From Leptolyngbya subtilissima AS-A7 (GTDB lineage Bacteria; Cyanobacteriota; Cyanobacteriia; Phormidesmidales; Phormidesmidaceae): a stretch of DNA of 64,000 nt. Below are positions 12,399 through 62,883 of this stretch, one piece after another (within the stretch, counting starts at the first letter, position 1; each line of letters starts with the position of its first letter). Below the pieces are notes generated by a model. That model saw only the letters and a program-made list of their open reading frames with translations. It made no database searches and had not been told where the DNA came from. The translations under genes and the position numbers were made by a program. Location: positions 124,001 to 188,000 of the forward strand of contig NZ_JAMPKY010000005.1 in the NCBI RefSeq assembly GCF_039962255.1. Reading direction: 5' to 3'.

Positions 12399-14483
12399 GT
12401 GACAGATGCATCGAACGCAACACTAGATAGCTGGGTTCAGCAGTACGCACCTATGGCTGAAGCAGGACAGGGAGAACGATTGCTCGGAGGCCACTACCGA
12501 GTGCTGCGGCAGCTCAGTCGGGGCAGCTTTGGCGATACCTACCTGGCCGAAGACACCCACCGATTTCAAGAACTCTGCGTGCTGAAGGAGTTTAACCCTC
12601 AGGTGCCCGGCAAGCTGGCTTTGGATAAAGCCCAAACTCTGTTTGAGCGCGAGGCTAGCATTCTCTATCAGATCAACCATCCCCAGGTGCCTCGGTTTCG
12701 TGAACTGCTGAGGGATCAGGGACGGCTGTTTTTGGTGCAAGACTACGTCGAAGGCCCCACCTACCGAGAACTGCTCGATCGCCGCCGCGCCGTGGGTGAG
12801 AGCTTTAGCGAAGCGGAGGGGGTGCAGTTTTTGATGCAAACGCTGCCGCTGCTGCAATACCTGCACAGCATAGGTATCGTGCATCGCAATATTTCGCCCG
12901 ACAACTTGATTCAGCGCAATGCCGACGGTCGGCCGGTACTCATCGACTTTGGCGGCGTGAAGCAGCTGGTGGTGAATGTGCGCTATCAGCTGGGGGTCGC
13001 CCAGCCCTACCAGGCCGCCGATGGCACCATCACTCGCCTGGGCACCGTGGGCTATGCCCCCGAAGAACAGCTTGAATCAGGTCAAGTGAGCCCGGCTACC
13101 GATCTCTACGCTCTGGGCATGACCACCTTGGTGCTGCTGACGGGCAAAGACCCCGACGCCCTCTACGACGATCGCCGCGATCGCTGGATTTGGCCAGAGC
13201 AGGTTGAGCTATCGGCTACCCTAAGCCAGGTGCTGACTCAGCTGGCGGCTCACGATCCGAGCGATCGCTACCAGTCGGCGGGGCAGGCGCTGGCTGCCCT
13301 CAACCTGGCCCACCCCGACGCGCTCTCAGCGACCTGGTCGCAGCCCATGCCCGTTCGCATGCAGCCCACGGTGCCACCGCCCCAACCCGAACCGCCAAGG
13401 CTAGCGCCCACGATGGCGGTCGCCCCAGCGGCTTCCTATGCGCCACCCATGGCCCACGACCCCACGGCCACGGTGGCTCCGCCGCCTCGGGCGGTGCCGG
13501 TGCAAAAAACATCGCCGGGGTGCTGGCCGGCCTTAGCGGGGCTATTGGTTTTGGTGGGAGTCGCCGGAGGGCTGTGGTGGTGGCTCGACCCCCTGAGCCA
13601 GTTTGGGGGGGCTAGCTCCGAAGTCGTCTCGCCTGGCGGCAGTGATACCAGCAATCCCAACCTCAGCGAGGCCGAGCGCGATCGCAAACAGGCCCTGCGC
13701 GATCGCGCCGTCGCCCTCAGCGTTGACTGGTCCTACGTCACCAGCCTGACCGACCAACTGTTTTATGAACAAAACCCTGATCGCCAGGGCACCCAGCTTA
13801 CCGATCAGCCCCAGGATGAGCCCCTGCGGGCGGCGTGGGATGCGATCGCCGCCGATAATCTAAACCTGATCGAAGCCAACCTCAGCACTGACGCCCGCAG
13901 CAAGCTAGGCCGCTATAACCCCACCGACAGCGATCGTTGGAAGCAGCAGGTTAATGCCCTCTACGTCAGCAGCAACGCCCTCTATGATTTAGCTGACGCC
14001 CGCTTTAGCCAGCTGTTTCCAGGGCGGGAAAGGGAGGGCTTTGTCGAAACCGCTGTTGACCAAATCTGGTTTGCGCTGGCCCAAGACCAAGTTAACGCCA
14101 TGGAATCTGGCGAAAACCTGACCGAGGTTACCTTCGAGCAGGGCACCTTCAACCAGCAGCAGGAAGGCAATCTTAGCCCTGGCCATGGCCAGATCTATGT
14201 TGTCAATCTCACCGCTCAGCAGTTGCTTCGACTAAACCTGCAAGCCCCACCGGAGAGTACCCGCCTCTCGCTCTACGTGCCGGTGCCTACCGACGAACTG
14301 ACCCACATTCTGGCCGATGCCCAACAAAACACCTGGGCTGGAGAGCTGCCCCAGTCAGGTTACTACGAGATTGTGGTGGTATCTCAATCAGAGAATGTCA
14401 TTCCCTACCGCCTCACCGTGGCAGTTGATAACGTCATCAACGACATTATTAACCAACCAGATCCGCCTGAAAAGAACAATTGA
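12399..14483 (+). CDS. Serine/threonine kinase-like membrane protein (HRD Asp replaced)
   Basis: A 694-residue protein with GTG start; ATG 12453 is an alternative. Residues ~33-305 are a Hanks-type kinase domain: GSFGDTY glycine loop, VLK Lys63, FEREAS helix C, HRNISPDN at 162-169, DFG at 183-185 and GYAPEEQ. The catalytic Asp of HRD is Asn164 (codon AAT at 12888), so phosphotransfer is probably weak or absent. Then follow a Pro-rich linker, one membrane helix near residue 380 (WPALAGLLVLVGVAGGLWWW), and a ~290-residue outer region: helical first, then a beta domain like pre-peptidase C-terminal domains (GQIYVVNLTAQQLLRLNLQ). Likely an envelope sensor or scaffold. Confidence 0.85.
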   Translation: MTDASNATLDSWVQQYAPMAEAGQGERLLGGHYRVLRQLSRGSFGDTYLAEDTHRFQELCVLKEFNPQVPGKLALDKAQTLFEREASILYQINHPQVPRFRELLRDQGRLFLVQDYVEGPTYRELLDRRRAVGESFSEAEGVQFLMQTLPLLQYLHSIGIVHRNISPDNLIQRNADGRPVLIDFGGVKQLVVNVRYQLGVAQPYQAADGTITRLGTVGYAPEEQLESGQVSPATDLYALGMTTLVLLTGKDPDALYDDRRDRWIWPEQVELSATLSQVLTQLAAHDPSDRYQSAGQALAALNLAHPDALSATWSQPMPVRMQPTVPPPQPEPPRLAPTMAVAPAASYAPPMAHDPTATVAPPPRAVPVQKTSPGCWPALAGLLVLVGVAGGLWWWLDPLSQFGGASSEVVSPGGSDTSNPNLSEAERDRKQALRDRAVALSVDWSYVTSLTDQLFYEQNPDRQGTQLTDQPQDEPLRAAWDAIAADNLNLIEANLSTDARSKLGRYNPTDSDRWKQQVNALYVSSNALYDLADARFSQLFPGREREGFVETAVDQIWFALAQDQVNAMESGENLTEVTFEQGTFNQQQEGNLSPGHGQIYVVNLTAQQLLRLNLQAPPESTRLSLYVPVPTDELTHILADAQQNTWAGELPQSGYYEIVVVSQSENVIPYRLTVAVDNVINDIINQPDPPEKNN

Positions 14484-14588
14484 TGTCAGCACAGCCTGCT
14501 CTCTCTACCGTTTCCGATTGTTACCTTTTGCAACTTTGGGAGCAACTTAGGGCGATATTTGTTGGGGTCAACGCACTTTCCCACGGTT

Positions 14589-15056
14589 ATGAACCACATT
14601 CTGCTCAACTCCATTCGGGAGTCTGAGGGTCGGTACCTAAGCGATTCAGAACTACGGCCCCTAGCCCAGTTTGTGGCGTCCTTCGATACACGTTTTAAGA
14701 CCTATACCCGCCTGAGAGCAGACGGTAAAACCCTGGTACTCAACGCCCTGCGCCAGCTCATGGTGGGTTCCTATCGCGAGGTGGTGCAGGTCCACGGAGC
14801 CAAGTGTCAGCGCGACATGCTCTATACCCTAGAGTGCATTGCTAAAGCCGTTCTGCTCGATGACCCGGACGGCTTTATGGAAGAGTATGTGATGTGGATG
14901 CAGAACATTACCCGCGCCCTGCATAAACAAGACTCTGCGATCGCCGCCTATCGCTGCCTGCAAGCTCAAGTTCTGGCTACCTTACCCGAAACCTCAGCTC
15001 AGCTCATCAATAGCTATTTAGACAAACTCATCCAAGCCTTGAGCGATGGCCTGTAG
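14589..15056 (+). CDS. Phycobilisome-domain (globin-like) protein without obvious bilin site
   Basis: A 155-residue all-helical protein from ATG 14589 (TTG 14559 is an in-frame alternative). The pattern RYLSDSELRPLAQFVASFDTR, LVLNALRQLM, CQRDMLYTLECIAKAVLLDD, MQNITRALHKQ and a final helix AQLINSYLDKLIQAL matches phycobilisome/phycobiliprotein-fold proteins (globin-like helices B to H). The CxRD position resembles a chromophore-binding neighbourhood, but the rest of the site is not clearly conserved. It may be a linker, lyase-like or sensor relative rather than a light-harvesting subunit. A degenerate RAYT gene follows. Confidence 0.6.
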   Translation: MNHILLNSIRESEGRYLSDSELRPLAQFVASFDTRFKTYTRLRADGKTLVLNALRQLMVGSYREVVQVHGAKCQRDMLYTLECIAKAVLLDDPDGFMEEYVMWMQNITRALHKQDSAIAAYRCLQAQVLATLPETSAQLINSYLDKLIQALSDGL

Positions 15057-15155
15057 ACCAGCCGCAACAACACCGTAACTTCATCCCCAACGTTGATACT
15101 GGCCCGAGTCGGCTGGGAAGACTTAGGGTACTGGTGCTTTCATGGTTTGGCGCTC

Positions 15156-15665
15156 ATGAGTCTACGCAATAACGCCTACGCCACAGTTGCTTCGAGGGCA
15201 AATATTTTGACTCATTCCGCTGCGCCTAAGCCTTACCTGATCAGGCTTTCGACCTTTCAGCAGCAGCCGCTACTGGGCGACTATAGGCAGGGTCAGCTGT
15301 GCCTCAACGACTGCGGCCAGATTGTGGCCGACGAGTGGGTACGAGCTGCCGCCAACCGCAAAGGCATCGACCTTGATGTCTGGACGATCACCCCCACTAG
15401 CCTACAAAGCGTTGTCTTTTTGCAAGTGCCAGCTACAGTTGGTGCTGGGCTAACCGGCCTCCACGAAGGCCAAAAACCCTGGCTGCTGTCGTCATTTATT
15501 GCCAGCTTTAAAGCGGTAGCGGCCAAGCGCATTAACCTACGGCTAAACCAGCTGGGGCAGTCGGTGTGGCAGCGCAACTATGACGAGCACCTGATTGGTG
15601 GCGATGACTATCTAGCCGAGCTGCGCTATAAGCTGCAAAGCCAGAACCAACAGCCCACTGTATAG
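15156..15665 (+). CDS. Degenerate RAYT (REP-associated tyrosine transposase) relative
   Basis: About 169 residues from ATG 15156 (TTG 15093 is possible). The layout follows Y1/HUH RAYT transposases: GQLCLNDCGQIVADEWVRAA, a middle strand, SFIASFKAVAAKRINLRL, then VWQRNYDEHLI. The HUH metal motif, usually PNHVHG, reads PTSLQS here, so both His are lost. The usual second Tyr of NYYEH is Asp. Strand cleavage is therefore unlikely. The frame is intact over its full length, which suggests a domesticated DNA-binding protein rather than a decaying pseudogene. Confidence 0.7.
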   Translation: MSLRNNAYATVASRANILTHSAAPKPYLIRLSTFQQQPLLGDYRQGQLCLNDCGQIVADEWVRAAANRKGIDLDVWTITPTSLQSVVFLQVPATVGAGLTGLHEGQKPWLLSSFIASFKAVAAKRINLRLNQLGQSVWQRNYDEHLIGGDDYLAELRYKLQSQNQQPTV

Positions 15666-15704
15666 ACATCTCCAAAAGGTTATGCAAAGTGTTTTAAGGG
15701 GTCT

Positions 15705-15736
15705 GGCGATCGCTAGGTCTCTTGTAAGCGATCGCC
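15705..15736. repeat. HIP1-bearing inverted repeat between convergent genes
   Basis: GGCGATCGCT (15705-15714) and AGCGATCGCC (15727-15736) pair perfectly over 10 bp. Each arm holds one HIP1 octamer. It separates the RAYT relative from yqeY and may act as a bidirectional transcription barrier, although no T-run follows. Confidence 0.55.
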
Positions 15737-15780
15737 CTATGCCTCCACAAACGGGGAATTAAGAGGCTTTAAACTCAGCT

Positions 15781-16239
15781 CTAGCCCGCTAGTTTGGCCT
15801 TAACTAAAGCCTGCACCTTGCCGCCATCGGCGCGGCCTTTGAGCTGCTGCATGACTGGTCCCATCACTTTACCCATATCTTTGGGCGACGAGGCCCCGGT
15901 CTGGGCGATCAGATCGTCAATGACGGCTTCGACTTCGGCATCGCTGAGCTGCTGGGGCAGATATTCTTCAATAATGGCTAGTTCTTCAGCTTCCTGGGCA
16001 GCCAGCTCGTCGCGCCCGGCTTTTTGGTACTGCTCGATTGAGTCTTTGCGCTGTTTGGCCAGCTGGGTCAGCACCTCTAGTTCTTGGTCGGCGGTAAGCT
16101 CATCTTGTCCGCTGGGGCGCACCAAAGACTCTTTTTCGAGAATCACTTTTTTAATGCTGCGAACCGTCTCTAGGCGCACCTTGTCTTTGGCCTTCATGGC
16201 GGTTTTGATGTCGTCGCTGATGCGGTCTTTCAGACTCAT
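15781..16239 (-). CDS. yqeY: GatB/YqeY domain protein
   Basis: A 152-residue protein of standard length. Helical N-terminal segment MSLKDRISDDIKTAMKAKDK, then RLETVRSIKKVILEKE, LAKQRKDSIEQYQKAGR, ELAIIEEYLPQQLSDAEV and the closing DMGKVMGPVMQQLKGRADG, all signature blocks of YqeY. It shares the tRNA-binding tail domain of GatB amidotransferase subunits and is linked to tRNA metabolism, with no precise reaction known. Its 3' end faces the RAYT relative. Confidence 0.93.
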   Translation of the reverse strand: MSLKDRISDDIKTAMKAKDKVRLETVRSIKKVILEKESLVRPSGQDELTADQELEVLTQLAKQRKDSIEQYQKAGRDELAAQEAEELAIIEEYLPQQLSDAEVEAVIDDLIAQTGASSPKDMGKVMGPVMQQLKGRADGGKVQALVKAKLAG

Positions 16240-16405: not shown

Positions 16406-16852
16406 TTACTCCATCTCTTCATCTTTCCGACTCTCCAACTGCTGTTCTAAAAAATTCACTAAATCAGCGCAGGTGAACAGCTGGGTTTCGTCGAAGTACT
16501 CGCTGATATCGAGATCAAAAGTTTCGTAGAAGTCTTCGCAGAGGGTGAGGCTCCAGTCAAACCAGCACACCGCTGGAAACGACAGATCGTCAACCAGGTT
16601 ATCGCTGGGTTTTACGCAGCCGATTTCGAGGCCGGAGTAGGCGGTGAGCTGCTGGTAGACAAAGTCAATCAGCGGTTTGGGCAGAGGCCGACGCACTGCT
16701 GGCGGGGTCCAATGGTAGCGGTACCACTCGTCGCAGGTGAGGCATCGGCGCGATCGCAGCCACTGGTTCACCCGTTGACGGGCGACCATGTCGGGGCTGA
16801 GGGCCATATAGGTGGTAAGGCTATTGACAAAGTTTTTCAACGGTTGCCACAT
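16406..16852 (-). CDS. Hypothetical protein with acyl-carrier-like C-terminal region
   Basis: A 148-residue, Trp- and acidic-rich protein. The N-terminal half (YMALSPDMVARQRVNQWL, CLTCDEWYRYHW) has a CxxC-like pair that is not clearly a metal site. The C-terminal 75 residues (LIDFVYQQLTAYSGLEIG..KPSDNLVDDL, then LCEDFYETFDLDI and FTCADLVNFLEQQL) follow the helix pattern of acyl-carrier-like proteins, but the DSL phosphopantetheine Ser is absent. Function unknown. It is a standalone gene between yqeY and aroA on the same strand. Confidence 0.55.
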   Translation of the reverse strand: MWQPLKNFVNSLTTYMALSPDMVARQRVNQWLRSRRCLTCDEWYRYHWTPPAVRRPLPKPLIDFVYQQLTAYSGLEIGCVKPSDNLVDDLSFPAVCWFDWSLTLCEDFYETFDLDISEYFDETQLFTCADLVNFLEQQLESRKDEEME

Positions 16853-27881: not shown

Positions 27882-27909
27882 GTAGGGGCGCAGCATGCTG
27901 CGCCCCTAC
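27882..27909. repeat. 28-bp perfect palindrome, GTAGGGGCGCAGCA class
   Basis: GTAGGGGCGCAGCA is followed directly by its own reverse complement. The identical 28 bp occurs at 38240-38267 inside gltB, and a longer variant at 62842-62883. It lies 41 bp upstream of the alpha/beta hydrolase start. Confidence 0.85.
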
Positions 27910-38000: not shown

Positions 38001-39668
38001 CGAGGTGATGATCGCCTCGCGGATGGAGTCGATGGGCGGGTTGGTCACCTGCGCAAACAGCTGGTGAAAGTAGTCGTACAGCAGCCGAGGCTTATTCGAC
38101 AGTACGGGCAGTGGCGTGTCGGTACCCATGGCACCGACGGCTTCGACACCGCTCTCGGCCATGGGCTTGAGCAGCAGGCGCAGCTCCTCGAAGGTGTAGC
38201 CAAAGGCAGTTTGGGCGATCGATAGGGGTGCAGGGGTGGGTAGGGGCGCAGCATGCTGCGCCCCTACGGGGTTAGTGCCATTGCCGTTTAACCCTGCGGG
38301 GTCTGTGGACTCTGGCAGATCGCCCAGTTTCACTAGGTGCTGATCGAGCCATTCCCGGTAAGGTTGCTCGGCGGCGATCTGGTGCTTGATCTCTTCGTCG
38401 GAGACAATGCGGCCCTCGTCCATATTCACCAGGAACATGCGGCCCGGCTCTAGGCGACCCTTGTAGGCGACGCGCTCGGGCTCGATGGGTAATACCCCGG
38501 CTTCCGAGGCCATGATCACCAGATCGTCCTTGGTGACGGTGTAGCGGGAAGGGCGCAAGCCGTTGCGATCGAGCACCGCACCCATCATGGTGCCGTCGGT
38601 GAAGGCGATCGCAGCCGGGCCATCCCAGGGCTCCATCAGGCAGGCGTGGTATTCGTAAAAGGCTTTTTTCTCAGCGCTCATCGACTCGTGGGCCGTCCAG
38701 GGTTCGGGCACCATCATCATCATGGCGTGGGGCAGCGAGCGGCCCGCCAGGGTCATGAGTTCCAACGTATTGTCGAAGATGCCAGAGTCGCTGCCTTCTT
38801 TATTGATCAGTGGCTTGGCGCGATCGAGATCGCCGCCAAACAGCTCTGACTCAAACATCGACTGGCGAGCATACATCCAGTTGATGTTGCCGCGCAGGGT
38901 GTTGATTTCGCCGTTGTGGGCCACATAACGGTAGGGGTGAGCCCGCTCCCAACTGGGGAAGGTGTTGGTGCTAAAGCGCGAGTGCACCAGGGCCAGGGCG
39001 CTTTCCATCGCCTCATCGGCCAGGTCGGGGAAGTAGAGCCCCACCTGTTCTGGCGTCAACATGCCCTTGTAAACCACCGTACGGCAGGACAGGCTAGTGG
39101 CATACCAGTAGGGGTCGGTGGGGTGAATGGCCGAGTGGGTGCGCTTGCGAATGATATAGAGCTTGCGTTCAAAGGCTTGGTCGTCGGCCAGATCGGGCGA
39201 TCGCTGAATGAACACCTGCTGCATAAACGGCTCGCTGGCCTTGGCCGTATCGCCTAGGGAAGCGTTGTCGGTGGGCACATCGCGCCAGCCCAACACCTGC
39301 TGCCCTTCTTCTGCGGCAATTCGCTCAAAGATGCGACGACCTTGTTCGCGGTCTGCCGGGGTGGGTGACGAAAAGAAAAAGCCGACACCATAATGCCCTG
39401 GCCCTGGTAGGGTAATGCCCGCTTCTGCTGCTACCTTTGCCATAAATTTGTGGGGCATTTGCAGCAAAATACCTGCCCCGTCGCCGGTGTTGGCCTCAGC
39501 CCCCACCGCACCTCGGTGGGCCAGATTGACCAAAATCGTCAGCCCCTGCTGCACAATAGTGTGCGACTGAGCGCCCTTCATGTGGACGATGAAGCCAACG
39601 CCACAGGCATCGTGTTCGTACTGTGGATGGTAAAGACCTTGAGCTTGGGGCGGTTGAGATAGGGTCAT
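35034..39668 (-). CDS. gltB: Glutamate synthase large subunit (GltB)
   Basis: About 1544 residues from ATG 39668. It opens with the glutaminase domain ([16 protein letters not shown]; Cys nucleophile near residue 24, so a short propeptide is removed). The synthase barrel carries [25 protein letters not shown]-type flavin contacts and the 3Fe-4S cysteines ([20 protein letters not shown]). The C-terminal beta-helix follows ([10 protein letters not shown]..., [16 protein letters not shown]). Odd point: near residue 475 a 28-bp palindrome adds VGAQHAAPL in frame, within a variable linker between the glutaminase and central domains. Confidence 0.95.
38240..38267. repeat. 28-bp palindrome inside gltB coding sequence
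   Basis: Identical to 27882-27909. In the gltB frame it reads VGAQHAAPL, flanked by a Gly/Asn-rich stretch before and PTPAPL after. It adds no frameshift or stop. Confidence 0.85.
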
Positions 39669-62841: not shown

Positions 62842-62883
62842 AACCCCGTAGGGGCGTAGCATGCTACGCCCCTACGGGGTTCA
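62842..62883. repeat. 42-bp perfect palindrome, extended GTAGGGGCGTAGCA class
   Basis: Each half reads GAACCCCGTAGGGGCGTAGCA and its complement follows immediately. It is the longest copy of the palindrome class in the window and differs from the 28-bp copies by C to T (and complement) at one pair. It lies 20 bp after the symporter stop codon. Confidence 0.85.

Follow-up and report, generated by a model that had tools for sequence, protein, structure and literature searches.

The gene analysed here encodes a domesticated, catalytically dead derivative of the RAYT (TnpAREP) transposases. It lies in a 64,000-nucleotide stretch of DNA (the window) on contig 5 of the source genome (G000; 5.66 Mb in 18 contigs). 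The protein is best read, at somewhat better than even probability, as a stand-alone, nuclease-dead putative binder of hairpin-forming single-stranded nucleic acid with a regulatory or structural role in the host, exercised elsewhere than at the GTAGGGGC palindromes of the genome.

Results

Loss of the catalytic residues

The reading frame is open over its full length, as the earlier note had stated, and residues 80-85 differ from the PNH[VLIF]HG motif of active RAYTs (PNHVHG reads PTSLQS), a loss common to 50 orthologues (Table 1). The substitution of the second Tyr of NYYEH, on which the note had also relied, is present as Asp (NYDEH) but does not affect a catalytic residue. When a live member of the family is aligned by phmmer with TnpAREP (PDB 4er8), a weak match at E 0.21, the second NYYEH Tyr falls on W99 while the YIHSNP Tyr falls on Y115, the residue altered in the Y115F catalytic mutant of TnpAREP (accessible text of PMC8266576). 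The catalytic loss is nevertheless more complete than the earlier note saw, since Lys159 occupies the Y115 place and the third metal ligand, N119 in TnpAREP, is mostly lost as well, with Asn at its place in 2 of 50 dead orthologues. The N-terminal HHRRSIRL motif of RAYTs is likewise lost in the alignment of the dead proteins with active RAYTs.

Table 1. Features of the dead RAYT gene and its upstream region (window coordinates)
Feature	Position	Strand	Basis
Catalytically dead RAYT derivative, CDS, 169 aa, ATG start	15156..15665	+	orthologues, dN/dS
PTSLQS, residues 80-85, HUH place (PNHxHG in active RAYTs), both His gone	15393..15410	+	orthologue comparison
KPWLLSSFIASFKAVAAKRINLRL, residues 107-130, alpha3-place helix, most conserved part	15474..15545	+	pN/pS, model, identity
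VWQRNYDEH, residues 137-145, conserved W-Q segment; Asp is the noted substitution, non-catalytic position	15564..15590	+	
Residues 150-165, helix bearing the catalytic Tyr in active enzymes; evolves fast here	15603..15650	+	
Lys159 at the catalytic Tyr place (Y115 of TnpAREP)	15630..15632	+	Tyr in 0/50 orthologues
Upstream intergenic stretch with block ctgggaagacttagggtactggtgc before the ATG	15057..15155	+	9 Nodosilinea loci aligned

The NCBIfam match of the window protein to the RAYT family NF047646 is weak (19.4 bits against a cut-off of 80), and the same model matches 40 of 42 dead orthologues at E <= 0.01. Searches of the window protein gave no match in Pfam or PHROGs and a single one in PADLOC, at E 0.05 and to no trusted family; a single orthologue of the 42 hit Pfam Y1_Tnp (E 0.00029), and a single one hit a phage family (E 0.006). 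A phage origin was considered and rejected, the region 14400-15800 having no DNA-level match in the phage collection.

Distribution and descent of the dead clade

A first search covered 96 genomes, 58 of them from the same family (G000-G057). The 71 loci read comprise 50 proteins lacking both the HUH pair and the catalytic Tyr and 21 that have HUH. The 50 dead proteins come from as many genomes, with no genome carrying two among the copies read, and all belong to one cyanobacterial family, in which they occupy 50 of 58 genomes (21 of 26 of the same genus and 29 of 32 of other genera) and 14 of the 14 genera sampled. Neither HUH histidine survives in most of them: 0/50 have both and 6/50 keep one, the first in three and the second in three. 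As Tyr is never found at position 159 and the single His remnants differ among orthologues, the Tyr was probably lost early and the histidines drifted later in separate lineages.

The gene is dispensable in some genomes, as five of the 26 same-genus genomes lack it (G002, G006, G014, G018, G021); the window's YqeY gene is unmatched in four of these and placed elsewhere in the fifth, and the five may form a separate lineage. Absence from two other genomes (G041, G043) is unsafe because their contigs end 36 and 376 bases past the M48 peptidase gene, where the dead gene would come; one further family genome, G052, is 61% complete.

A second search ran a profile of 42 dead proteins (alignment A1) against 388 genomes from across the class (50 of these from the family, some already in the first set), scored at most nine candidates per genome, and found matches in 150, of which 46 lie in the family and 104 outside. 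Among 19 frames at 17 top-ranking loci of the class-wide list (G183:C82 skipped) there was no HUH-less RAYT outside the family, and the YxxxNP pattern was matched in 16 of the 19. HUH is kept at L048, L057 and L066, also outside the family, and both HUH and the YxxxNP pattern are missing at L161-L163, from three further family genomes. A scan of named genomes returned 42 loci, and 41 of these belong to cyanobacteria (Nodosilinea, Leptolyngbya PCC 6406 and PCC 7375, Adonisia turfae, Phormidesmis, Vasconcelosia, Halomicronema, Oscillatoria CS-180 and others); the one non-cyanobacterial match (L114, Pirellula) keeps SNHVHC and YIGRNP and is a live RAYT. Alignment A2 (41 rows: 40 named-genome orthologues and the window protein) contains no protein with both histidines and none with the catalytic Tyr.

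The dead proteins share descent with HUH-positive RAYTs, as seen in the NF047646 matches, the alignment and the tree. In a maximum-likelihood tree, 45 dead proteins separate from 38 live (HUH-positive) ones with a single change of label and 100/100 support for the dead branch, and the split remains when the N-terminal, HUH and Tyr columns are removed (SH-aLRT 100). The dead protein at L029, in which the first His is still present, is drawn beside the live branch. A PNHxHG-class RAYT would thus have been domesticated once, in an ancestor of the family that holds Nodosilinea, Leptolyngbya PCC 7375 and PCC 6406, Adonisia, Phormidesmis and others. From this single origin we infer one later move to the Nodosilinea locus, at least one move being called for by the two main loci described below.

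Genomic neighbourhood

In the window the gene order is kinase, phycobilisome-domain gene, dead gene, and then YqeY, a small gene and aroA, these last three on the reverse strand. Across 47 loci compared, the kinase and/or YqeY adjoin the dead gene in 18 of 18 Nodosilinea loci, the kinase of L087 and L088 being a distant one with WD repeats. Most other loci run MurA, M48 peptidase, dead gene, RimM and then a reverse-strand valine-pyruvate aminotransferase; M48 is present in 21 of the 47, RimM in 18 and at least one of the two in 25. A kinase lies upstream at L023, L035 and L091, and L096 has none of the kinase, YqeY, M48 or RimM neighbours. The six genomes read outside the family have no dead gene next to M48: G122, G195 and G198 carry a SpoU-MurA-M48 array that lacks it, and G183, G296 and G071 have M48 but no MurA there. 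These M48 neighbourhoods make the dead gene look like an addition in its own cyanobacterial family. No mobile element was seen around it.

The earlier note had looked to the upstream phycobilisome-domain gene as a conserved partner, and this association proved local to Nodosilinea. By tblastn the gene lies upstream in 13 of 21 Nodosilinea loci (at L014 the match is a 40-residue piece only) and in 0 of 29 dead loci of other genera, where the upstream flanks searched measured 2-4020 bases. A functional tie between the two genes was rejected, given that they are adjacent in part of Nodosilinea only. The neighbour itself (14589-15056) encodes a divergent phycobilisome-domain protein (Pfam E 7.9e-20) that scores far under the cut-offs for phycocyanin and allophycocyanin subunits, and it is the fastest evolving of the four genes compared.

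Purifying selection

Among seven Nodosilinea orthologues the median dN/dS is 0.099 over 21 pairs (dS 0.016-0.83); the corresponding values are 0.041 for YqeY, 0.081 for the small gene at 16406 and 0.186 for the phycobilisome-domain gene (five sequences). The constraint is unevenly spread along the protein. In the same seven sequences pN/pS is 0.185 for residues 1-26, 0.067 for residues 27-79, 0.053 for the six codons of the HUH place (residues 80-85), 0.237 for the loop 86-106, 0.030 for the alpha3 stretch (residues 107-129), 0.062 for residues 130-146 and 0.272 for the former Tyr helix and C-terminus (residues 147-169).

The frame disruption in relatives that the earlier note had named as the sign of simple decay was not found: one open frame covers the core (residues 26-158) in 49 of 50 orthologues, and the remaining one is cut by a contig end. 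A functionless, decaying transposase remnant would account for the missing catalytic residues, and a survey of RAYTs counts sequences without the core motifs as non-functional (accessible text of PMC6006769). Such decay is already refuted by the dN/dS of about 0.1, the open frames, the conserved loci and the single clade with 100/100 support, unless the orthologue set is wrong. Domestication, which the note had put forward as a possibility, is borne out by vertical inheritance at conserved loci together with this selection and these intact frames.

Constraint is not confined to alpha3. The former HUH loop is also held within Nodosilinea while varying between genera, so a picture in which alpha3 alone matters is too simple, and the loop may have taken on a new role. 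A new catalytic activity in the same fold would fit the constraint on this loop and the invariance of E60, W138 and Y142 in both alignments of the dead orthologues (A1 and A2). Against it, the former active-site loop ranks with the more variable regions when genera are compared, and inspection by eye of the conserved columns revealed no new cluster of acidic or nucleophilic residues, which makes it very improbable.

Predicted fold and conserved surface

An AlphaFold2 model built from 41 sequences (40 orthologues and the window protein) has a mean pLDDT of 80.5, with 101 of 169 residues at or above 90, low confidence only at residues 1-21, 96-104 and 166-169, and a helix at 109-130. The top 30 PDB matches of the model in Foldseek are all Y1 transposases, many of them hairpin-bound. 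In VIA-align, 2a6m scores Z 13.4 and the TnpAREP-REP complex 4er8 scores Z 11.6 over 116 residues, with the first unrelated entries at Z 8.3 and lower. We are therefore confident that the predicted fold is that of a Y1 transposase. A profile search of the PDB sequences gave no match at E <= 1, so that fold comparison was needed to link the protein to solved structures.

Mean pairwise identities within 20 dead and 34 live proteins show where the two groups part. Identity is lower in the dead set for the HUH region (0.38 vs 0.87), the Tyr helix (0.26 vs 0.50), beta1 (0.46 vs 0.72) and beta4 (0.49 vs 0.70), and about equal for VWQR (0.61 vs 0.63), whereas in alpha3 it is higher (0.77 vs 0.56). 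The live set spans more families, which raises dead-set identity in itself and may explain part of the alpha3 difference; the regions other than alpha3 run the opposite way. The window helix is matched to alpha3 by the order of the elements and by the fold.

The accessible text of PMC8266576 names alpha3 as the helix through which TnpAREP binds DNA, and K82 as a residue in contact with the bulge. In the alpha3-place helix and the W-Q segment of the dead protein, K119, R125 and W138 are present in 50 of 50 dead orthologues and K124 in 49 of 50, and live RAYTs conserve the K119 and K124 places at 1.00 and 0.94. The same source locates the contacts of TnpAREP to GTAG in beta1, around beta4 and in the C-terminus, and describes Q95, D100 and R104, among the GTAG-contacting residues, as relatively conserved in group 3. 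Of the 50 dead orthologues, 46 have Gln at the Q95 place and 1 has Arg at the R104 place. The loss at the R104 place and the weaker conservation of beta1 and beta4 relative to live RAYTs mean that the DNA contact surface is partly altered. From these alignments hairpin contact may have been kept, while the reading of GTAG has probably changed.

The conservation of alpha3 could alternatively reflect packing or contact with another protein. A protein-protein scaffold that kept the fold and lost nucleic-acid binding would be in keeping with such an interface and with the partly altered GTAG-contact surface (R104 place, beta1, beta4). The conserved basic residues of alpha3, however, are also kept by active RAYTs, which fits nucleic-acid binding better, and we regard a scaffold as improbable.

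REP palindromes and live RAYTs

The genome does carry palindromes of the kind described earlier: 42 of the form GTAGGGGC...GCCCCTAC were counted, against 0 for a reversed control pattern. Three lie inside the window as perfect REP palindromes with cores GCAGCATGCTGC or GTAGCATGCTAC (27882-27909, 38240-38267 and 62848-62875). The source genome also holds at least five HUH-intact RAYTs missed in the earlier note (L002, L168-L171), and REP-like hairpins occur near four of them (L002, L169, L170, L171). The live RAYT at L002 is flanked by another core, ATTGCAGTGCAAT, and not by GCAGCATGCTGC or GTAGCATGCTAC.

Dead and live genes differ in their association with such elements. A search of the 700 bp around each gene found REP-like hairpins at 4 of 50 dead loci vs 14 of 21 live loci (Fisher p 9e-7), with 0.01 per kb in both groups alike after shuffling in 50-base blocks; none lies within 700 bp of the window gene (L001). 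Among the 50 dead-gene genomes, some of which are incomplete (G034, for example, is 69%), GTAGGGGC palindromes are absent from nine, number zero or one in 20 and at least eight in 22. The 20 poor genomes indicate that retention of the dead gene does not depend on these palindromes, and a family-wide link between the gene and the palindromes was not upheld. Within the genus, at least eight palindromes are found in 17 of 21 genomes with the gene and in 0 of 5 without it; we do not trust this association, since the five gene-less genomes also differ in their surroundings. The dead protein may bind other REP classes, as at least one palindrome-poor genome, G001, has another REP-like class adjoining other RAYTs. 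The earlier proposal that palindrome binding was kept therefore stands only in a general form, through the alpha3-place helix as the best conserved part; GTAGGGGC as a conserved target finds no support in the genome counts or at the 46 dead loci that have no REP-like hairpin within 700 bp.

These data bear on the main rival, in which the dead protein silences active RAYTs by binding REP hairpins or by pairing with active subunits and so blocks transposition. Active RAYTs coexist with the dead gene in its genomes, the alpha3-place helix is kept, and the palindrome-rich genomes of the genus are those with the gene, which may be a single phylogenetic event. IS200-type TnpA works as a dimer (accessible text of PMC6006769), so a dead subunit able to form dimers could poison active ones. 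What counts against a silencer is the near-absence of GTAGGGGC palindromes from 20 of 50 dead-gene genomes and of hairpins from the surroundings of most dead loci, together with dead-gene genomes such as G011 that have no other member of the class at the search depth used, albeit with other REP classes existing in G001. We consider it unlikely.

In G011 (L016, L174-L177) there are 50 GTAGGGGC palindromes, and the dead gene is the sole PNHxHG-clade member at the search depth used; of the 11 NF047646 matches in that genome, the four read are three PNHYH-class frames and one without matched HUH.

Discussion

Proposed function

In the preferred reading the protein is a nuclease-dead hairpin binder. 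No copy read has the catalytic Tyr or more than one HUH His, which leaves the protein unable to cut or rejoin DNA by the Y1 mechanism. It keeps the predicted compact Y1 fold, with purifying selection bearing on the alpha3-place helix and the W-Q segment, parts that, judged from active TnpAREP, would include contacts to the folded DNA hairpin. The putative ligand would be a hairpin-forming single-stranded nucleic acid, DNA being likelier than RNA, and the protein would serve the host in a regulatory or structural capacity, away from the GTAGGGGC palindromes. More tentatively, and with less than even probability, the whole family could possess a dedicated nuclease-dead hairpin reader that descends from a REP transposase but has targets of another kind than REPs, such as structured single-stranded DNA where replication or transcription takes place, or hairpins in RNA. 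If so, it would be a Y1/HUH-derived host factor in which catalysis has gone and recognition alone is selected.

Relation to known systems

The closest known system is that of the RAYT/TnpAREP proteins (NF047646), specifically the cyanobacterial PNHxHG class, which the dead protein resembles in its Y1 fold, descent, alpha3-place helix and W-Q segment. It differs in lacking the HUH pair, the catalytic Tyr and HHRRSIRL, in having mostly lost the third metal ligand place, in standing more than 700 bp from any REP-like hairpin found at 46 of 50 loci, and in occupying shared loci. The best structural matches come from the IS200/IS605 TnpA proteins (ISHp608, ISDra2), hairpin-DNA complexes among them, at 10-16% identity in the structural alignments. 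These are active enzymes of mobile elements, unlike the dead protein with its missing catalytic residues and surroundings devoid of any visible element.

Domesticated bacterial transposases in general, reportedly treated by Bertels, Gallie and Rainey in 2017, are likewise vertically inherited, selected descendants of transposases. Vertical inheritance, purifying selection and an absence of mobility signs are all found for the dead gene.

RAYTs themselves are discussed as domesticated transposases, and the dead clade presents a catalytically empty RAYT held by selection across 14 sampled genera. In the accessible text of PMC6006769, the survey kept only RAYTs with HUH and Tyr, both of which the dead clade has lost, and set sequences without the core motifs aside as non-functional; this may account for the clade going unmentioned in the literature searched. 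That literature, which included the accessible text of PMC6006769, PMC8266576 and PMC3733652 and took in few subscription papers or bioRxiv preprints, contained no description of a RAYT clade that is conserved yet catalytically dead. A recognition-place helix more conserved in the dead clade than in active enzymes presents recognition separated from catalysis in nature, and a dead clade with live relatives in the same cells offers a clean system for asking what hairpin binding by a RAYT gives its host.

Upstream region and start codon

The ctgggaagacttagggtactggtgc block before the ATG is partly conserved in the nine aligned Nodosilinea loci and may be the site of the gene's promoter; no conserved palindrome was seen by eye upstream of the gene in the same alignment. 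At 11 of 25 printed loci (L026, L027, L031, L036, L038, L044, L051, L052, L053, L056 and L062) the dead gene's frame has no ATG from the stop before it up to its conserved core, and a TTG is found there at a roughly constant position. This pattern suggests that a weak start codon is conserved outside Nodosilinea.
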